Source: Marispirochaeta aestuarii
GTDB taxonomy: Bacteria; Spirochaetota; Spirochaetia; JC444; Marispirochaetaceae
Direction of reading: 5' to 3'
NCBI RefSeq assembly: GCF_002087085.1
Contig: NZ_MWQY01000001.1
Span: 62,001 to 126,000 of the forward strand
DNA: 64,000 nt
The position numbers and the translations under genes were made by a program. Below the pieces are notes generated by a model. It was not told the DNA's origin and did no database searches. It worked only from the letters and a program-made list of their open reading frames with translations. Shown in pieces: positions 40,175 through 40,911 of the stretch (positions within the stretch are counted from its first letter, which is position 1; every line of letters starts with the position of its first letter).

Positions 40175-40273
40175 AGGGATAATCTGTTGGTCTGCAGCTT
40201 CAACCGGACTTGCTTTCCGGGATGATATTGAGCATCTTTAATGGCGAAAGAACGGGAGAGGAGTTGGAAAATT

Positions 40274-40570
40274 ATGTTCGACTATGTTGATTTTCAGCAC
40301 AGGGAAGGCAGTATCAAGGACAGGGAGCTGAAACTGTTTGCTCTGTCCACCTGCGGTTTCTGTAAAAAAGCCATGGCTTTTCTTGAAGAGAACAATCTGG
40401 ACTACGAGTATATATTTGTCGATCTGATTGATTCCGAGGTAAAAAACAAAATAAAGGCGGATTTTGAAAAGAGATTCGAGAAGAAAATGCTTTTCCCGAC
40501 CCTTATAGTAGATGACGAGGAGTTCCTTGTGGGCTTTATTAAATTCTACTGGCAGAAACTGGCGGCGTAA
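40274..40570 (+). CDS. glutaredoxin-family protein
   Basis: A 98-residue thioredoxin-fold protein with the redox motif CGFC (LFALSTCGFCKKAMAFLEEN) and the cis-proline region FPTLIVDDEEFLVGF, as in glutaredoxins/NrdH-type proteins. The frame is open from an ATG at 40241, but GAGAGGAG is placed about 10 nt before the ATG at 40274. The stop overlaps the start of the ferredoxin:thioredoxin-reductase-like gene, so the two are probably redox partners. Confidence 0.85.
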   Translation: MFDYVDFQHREGSIKDRELKLFALSTCGFCKKAMAFLEENNLDYEYIFVDLIDSEVKNKIKADFEKRFEKKMLFPTLIVDDEEFLVGFIKFYWQKLAA

Positions 40571-40911
40571 TGGCAGAAAAAACTCTACAGGAAACTGAAA
40601 ACTTTGTACGCTCCGTGGCGGAGCACAAAGGATGGATATTGAATCGGGACGAAGATTTTATCGGACATCTAATAGAAGGGTTGCGGGTCAACTATAACCG
40701 TTACGGTTTCTATCAGTGCCCCTGCCGCGATTCCTATGGTACGAGAGAGAAGGACAAGGACATTATGTGTCCCTGCGATTATGCCCAGGCTGACATAGAC
40801 GAGTTCGGGCAGTGCTTCTGCGGCCTGTACCTCGCTCCGGATTTTTACGAGACCCATGATGATATCGACGGTATTCCGGAGCGGAGGCCTGAGGATCTTT
40901 ACCCGGATTGA
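40570..40911 (+). CDS. ferredoxin:thioredoxin reductase catalytic-like protein
   Basis: A 113-residue protein with the three cysteine pairs of the FTR beta subunit: FYQCPCRDS, MCPCDYAQ and QCFCGLYLAP. In plant and cyanobacterial FTR the motifs are CPC, CPC and CHC and hold a [4Fe-4S] cluster next to an active disulfide; here the spacings are 14 and 12 residues and the third motif is CFC, without the His. It most likely passes electrons from a ferredoxin to the adjacent glutaredoxin. The start overlaps that gene's stop. Organisms lacking photosynthesis carry such proteins sporadically. Confidence 0.88.
   Translation: MAEKTLQETENFVRSVAEHKGWILNRDEDFIGHLIEGLRVNYNRYGFYQCPCRDSYGTREKDKDIMCPCDYAQADIDEFGQCFCGLYLAPDFYETHDDIDGIPERRPEDLYPD

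Follow-up and report, generated by a model that had tools for sequence, protein, structure and literature searches.

A probable split glutaredoxin and ferredoxin:disulfide reductase pair in the spirochaete Marispirochaeta aestuarii

Two overlapping genes of Marispirochaeta aestuarii very probably specify a ferredoxin:disulfide reductase (FDR) and a glutaredoxin dedicated to it, acting in a route that would lead from ferredoxin through the FDR and the glutaredoxin to protein disulfides. They lie in a window of 64,000 nucleotides, the whole stretch of DNA analysed here (contig NZ_MWQY01000001.1, positions 62,001 to 126,000). A first-pass annotation of this DNA had proposed ferredoxin-driven reduction of the adjoining glutaredoxin, and this is the best reading of the pair, as a prediction, on the grounds of homology, fold, the pairing seen at every locus and a fusion that occurs in nature. 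The hypothesis is correct in outline and largely anticipated by known systems: the window pair is a split, spirochaete example of a type of pair already known from other anaerobes. It comprises the following features.

40274..40570, + strand: glutaredoxin/NrdH-like gene (open reading frame; frame open from 40241)
40352-40363, + strand: CGFC active site of the glutaredoxin (sequence)
40568..40572, + strand: TAATG, one-base overlap of glutaredoxin stop and FDR start (sequence)
40570..40911, + strand: FDR of the FTR catalytic-subunit family, short type without a rubredoxin domain (PF02943, PDB matches, model)
40717..40821, + strand: CPC-X14-CPC-X12-CFC of the FDR (C50-P-C52-X14-C67-P-C69-X12-C82-F-C84)

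The overlapping frames and both motifs were found as first annotated, and each frame scores above a curated family cut-off (PF00462 and PF02943). The stop codon of the glutaredoxin, TAA at 40568-40570, and the start codon of the FDR, ATG at 40570-40572, have one base in common, and the two genes are therefore probably translated together. We preferred the ATG at 40274 over 40241 as the glutaredoxin start because AGGAG lies 5' of it at 40259-40263 and relatives begin near MFDYV. On the same strand, the pair is preceded by genes for a galactokinase, SurE, a TPR protein and an NHL-repeat protein; it is followed by a 224-residue protein on the opposite strand, with no family match at E 0.001, and then by a TonB-dependent receptor on the + strand. 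None of these flanking genes hints at the function of the pair.

Family, fold and cysteine motif of the reductase

The likeness to the FTR catalytic subunit, remarked on in the first pass, was borne out by sequence and by fold. The 113-residue FDR matched a sole Pfam family, FeThRed_B (PF02943), at 79.4 bits (cut-off 22). A search of NCBIfam gave nothing above cut-off and one match below it, and identity as an FtrB double selenoprotein (NF041072) was rejected at 44.8 bits versus a curated cut-off of 160. The nearest solved chains by sequence were 4TPU (1.5e-24) and 7PWE (1.8e-24), with plant and cyanobacterial FTR chains at 5e-5 or weaker; when a profile of 16 FDR sequences was run against the PDB, 4TPU and 7PWE were found at 1e-44 and 1e-37 and the plant type at 2e-9 or weaker. 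An AlphaFold (AF2) model of the FDR (pLDDT 95.1, pTM 0.86) matched 7PWE_B with Z 16.5 over 110 residues, 4TPU with 14.7 and 1DJ7 with 10.2, and the first unrelated entry followed at Z 2.8.

The six cysteines of the FDR are each conserved in every one of the 16 relatives aligned. By comparison with plant-type FTR, we take C50, C67, C69 and C82 to hold the predicted [4Fe-4S] cluster and C52-C84 to form the redox disulfide. Reduced ferredoxin, probably from pyruvate:ferredoxin oxidoreductase (PFOR), would feed electrons singly to this cluster, which would reduce the adjacent C52-C84 disulfide; C52-C84 would then exchange with the glutaredoxin's CGFC disulfide, and the reduced glutaredoxin would in turn reduce target proteins. 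We infer the cluster, the ferredoxin donor, the electron transfer from FDR to glutaredoxin and every target by analogy with FTRs and FDRs.

The plant and cyanobacterial FTR catalytic subunit (1DJ7, 2PVG, 7C3F) shares PF02943 and the fold with the window FDR (Z about 10), and the six cysteines align; it carries CHC and a shorter last spacing, whereas the window FDR has CFC at C82-C84 and X12. The plant-type mechanism involves the histidine of CHC and a disulfide between C57 and C87, and the plant-type catalytic subunit works with a variable subunit. That partner, FeThRed_A (PF02941), had no match at E up to 1 in the organism's own genome (97% complete), and it was found in the control, Synechococcus elongatus.

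The spacing and the absence of CHC had at first been considered unusual, a view that did not survive comparison with 113 related loci. These were selected by FDR similarity alone (33 spirochaete loci picked among the best matches, plus the best 80 of 563 in a genome collection), and three are copies of others. X14/X12 spacing occurs in 111 of the 112 loci with a readable motif, L071 having X15/X12, and in every one of the 112 the motif closes with CFC or CYC. CPC-X14-CPC-X12-C[FY]C is standard in archaeal and bacterial FDRs, including 4TPU and 7PWE, and both this spacing and the lack of the histidine are therefore normal for the FDR branch. The locus with the unreadable motif, L094 from an Actinomycetota MAG, has a TGA at the last cysteine (CY-TGA, L094:3250-3252), a redox-active position at which it may specify selenocysteine; a CGWC glutaredoxin lies upstream. 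Separately, a spirochaete genome holds a divergent FTR-family frame ending CH-TGA (L142, G098:C140), with no glutaredoxin seen nearby. FTR selenoproteins are already known, according to the accessible parts of PMC2398784 and PMC13188914. Across spirochaetes, the reductase family was matched in 68 of 296 sampled genomes, 6 of the 68 matches being weak or interrupted by stops.

Pairing with the glutaredoxin and the direction of electron flow

A survey of gene neighbours, suggested in the first-pass annotation, found a glutaredoxin-family frame beside or inside the FDR in all 113 loci (112 by profile, L094 by eye). It lies upstream on the same strand in 112, counting the glutaredoxin-FDR fusion L100; in L095 it lies 279 bases downstream of the FDR, and in L082 the glutaredoxin frame is broken. 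A rule-based choice of start was possible for 105 loci: 44 of these have overlapping genes, 38 a gap of 0-20 bases, 17 a gap of 21-60 and 6 a gap of 61-150, which makes 82 with an overlap or at most 20 intervening bases. The window's own genome has four glutaredoxin-family matches in its 4.2 million bases, and arithmetic puts the chance of such closeness at about 1 in several thousand per genome. Chance adjacency, or a pair in decay, is next to impossible: we found nothing in favour of either, and both are refuted by intact frames without stops, the invariant motif, the order kept in three genus/family relatives (L002-L004) and the pairing throughout the set. Neighbourhood and fusion indicate partnership; they do not give the direction of electron flow.

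The window glutaredoxin matched PF00462 at 39 bits, above cut-off. Its closest solved chains are the glutaredoxins 5cax and 3nzn, presumably Methanosarcina proteins, and it also matches the N-terminal domain of the 7PWE fusion. A profile of 106 FDR-linked glutaredoxins, built without the window protein and its three nearest relatives, placed the window protein (L121) top among the redoxins of its own genome, at 100.8 bits versus 62.5 and 34.7 (E 6e-31 versus 5e-19 and 2.5e-10). Evidence to the contrary came from the glutaredoxin domain of the L100 fusion used as a lone query, which scored another glutaredoxin of the window's own genome, L120, slightly higher (28.7 bits, 1.5e-8) than L121 (23.5 bits, 6.4e-7).

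The FDR, still driven by ferredoxin, could chiefly serve thioredoxins or other redoxins, with the adjoining glutaredoxin as one client of several. Plant-type FTR reduces thioredoxins (complex structures in the PDB), a Methanosarcina FDR reduces a thioredoxin (accessible text of PMC6262447), and the window's own genome holds six thioredoxin-family matches; but the glutaredoxin-family frame adjoining or fused to every FDR of the set, and the 7PWE fusion, in which the FDR is paired with a glutaredoxin, make this decidedly unlikely. The same genome has one TrxR above cut-off with two strong relatives below it, besides its thioredoxin- and glutaredoxin-family matches, so other partners are possible, and the FDR route would run parallel to the NADPH thioredoxin route without replacing it. 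We regard as highly improbable a donor other than ferredoxin, that is, a separate rubredoxin or flavoprotein feeding the short-type FDR. A rubredoxin-like cysteine pattern is present at the C-terminus in 27 of 109 tree-placed loci (L010 and others, by sequence), so rubredoxin can belong to the route; however, no rubredoxin domain is present in the short type or in the 7PWE fusion structure, and the plant-type enzyme binds ferredoxin directly (title of 2PVG).

For the preferred donor, ferredoxin, the organism's own genome encodes a PFOR (1898 bits). Some PFOR match occurs in 68 of 68 FDR-positive spirochaete genomes, 14 of these matches being weaker than an E printed as 0, versus 184 of 228 others; since so many FDR-negative genomes also match, PFOR as a marker of ferredoxin supply lends weak support only. 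Rubredoxin fusion set against Trp in the glutaredoxin CxxC gave counts of 26, 3, 1 and 77 (n = 107). Co-evolution of the two was rejected: when traced on the FDR tree, the rubredoxin label takes only 2 changes, with 1 independent pair on supported branches, and it is therefore a clade marker that we did not use as evidence.

Several further observations concern archaeal loci. Spirochaetes share the combination of short FDR and CGFC glutaredoxin with Asgard archaea (L037, L043, L054, L055, L059 and L061), and the top named match to the window FDR is from a Lokiarchaeota MAG (57% identity); this sharing may reflect either transfer or binning error. In the Asgard MAG locus L047, the FDR-adjacent glutaredoxin is without both active-site cysteines (SRGGFG, near base 190), through either real loss or assembly error. 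A flavodiiron-type protein (ODP/flavodoxin) lies near the pair in four Asgard loci (L043, L054, L070 and L107; Pfam check for L043 only).

Known systems and candidate targets

The closest known counterpart is 7PWE from Desulfotalea psychrophila, titled a glutaredoxin/ferredoxin disulfide reductase fusion, which has the same two domains in the same order. Its FDR part is 39-40% identical to the window FDR over 108-110 residues, with equal cysteine spacing; it is a single polypeptide, whereas the window pair is two overlapping genes. The ferredoxin-dependent disulfide reductase of Methanosarcina acetivorans (4TPU) has CPC-X14-CPC-X12-CYC and an IPERRP tail, with Tyr in the last CxC where the window FDR has Phe. 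The 4TPU chain, of 173 residues and named Rubredoxin, presumably carries a C-terminal rubredoxin domain, in contrast to the short type of the window.

Proteins of this kind from non-photosynthetic organisms already have entries in the structure database (4TPU, 7PWE) and are in print (accessible part of PMC6262447). The same text presents FDRs as archaeal and bacterial Fe-S enzymes akin to FTRc; its reference 32 has a title on an FDR delivering electrons to class III ribonucleotide reductase, and Wei et al. stands in its reference list. Searches on 7PWE, the M. acetivorans FDR with rubredoxin and Desulfovibrio/Clostridium Grx-FTR found no paper in literature that covered few subscription papers, so that absence means little. 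The carrier in the work of Wei et al. is reportedly glutaredoxin-like NrdH; Balsera et al. 2013, Kumar et al. 2015 and Prakash et al. 2018 are named as references only.

By sequence, the window's own genome encodes a ribonucleotide reductase of class III whose finger loop carries MCCR, a motif whose meaning we took from the accessible part of PMC9669993. We considered this enzyme as a target of the FDR and glutaredoxin and rejected it: its small subunit has its own CPNC redoxin, and among the 23 genomes in which a full-length relative of this subunit stands alone, only 3 are also FDR-positive, so we claim no link. The enzyme itself is split.

L036:4590-5144 and L036:5168-7264, - strand: split class III ribonucleotide reductase (same genome, other contig)

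A 699-residue NrdD frame has an ATP-cone, MCCR and zinc-site cysteines and ends without a glycyl-radical motif; a separate 185-residue frame has RIVGYY and a CPNC glutaredoxin-like domain, and the 232-residue frame after it resembles the activase NrdG by eye. Full-length stand-alone relatives of the 185-residue subunit occur in 23 of 198 spirochaete genomes, and the enzyme is split in 10 of 12 fetched loci. Judged from these frames, a split anaerobic ribonucleotide reductase with a separate, predicted glycyl-radical/redoxin subunit is conserved in spirochaetes; it has no mention in the accessible parts of PMC9669993, PMC9531940 and PMC11226230, nor in literature listings.

Gene order pointed to another candidate. 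In 10 of 103 non-duplicate loci with enough downstream sequence, an IscS-like gene follows the glutaredoxin and FDR genes on the same strand (L080, L081, L067, L068, L050, L086, L009, L020, L082 and L006), and ThiI comes next in 9 of the 10, the sequence of the tenth (L006) being too short to judge; the families were assigned by Pfam for L081. All ten have short-type FDRs, nine in spirochaete genomes and one (L082) in an unplaced bacterium; neither IscS nor ThiI is among the neighbours of the window pair. The ten runs are a modest hint at sulphur transfer to tRNA as one target of the pair. A bolder proposal, which we rate as unlikely, is that in some spirochaetes ferredoxin, FDR and glutaredoxin would form a dedicated reductant for tRNA thiolation, resolving the ThiI disulfide or persulfide at each turn in the IscS-ThiI run. 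If this were true, tRNA thiolation would be tied to low-potential ferredoxin instead of NADPH. Little is known about the clients of the FDR pathway, and the IscS-ThiI run offers one target that can be tested. The window pair places a known anaerobic route of thiol reduction in spirochaetes, and CFC and X14/X12 prove to be nothing out of the ordinary.
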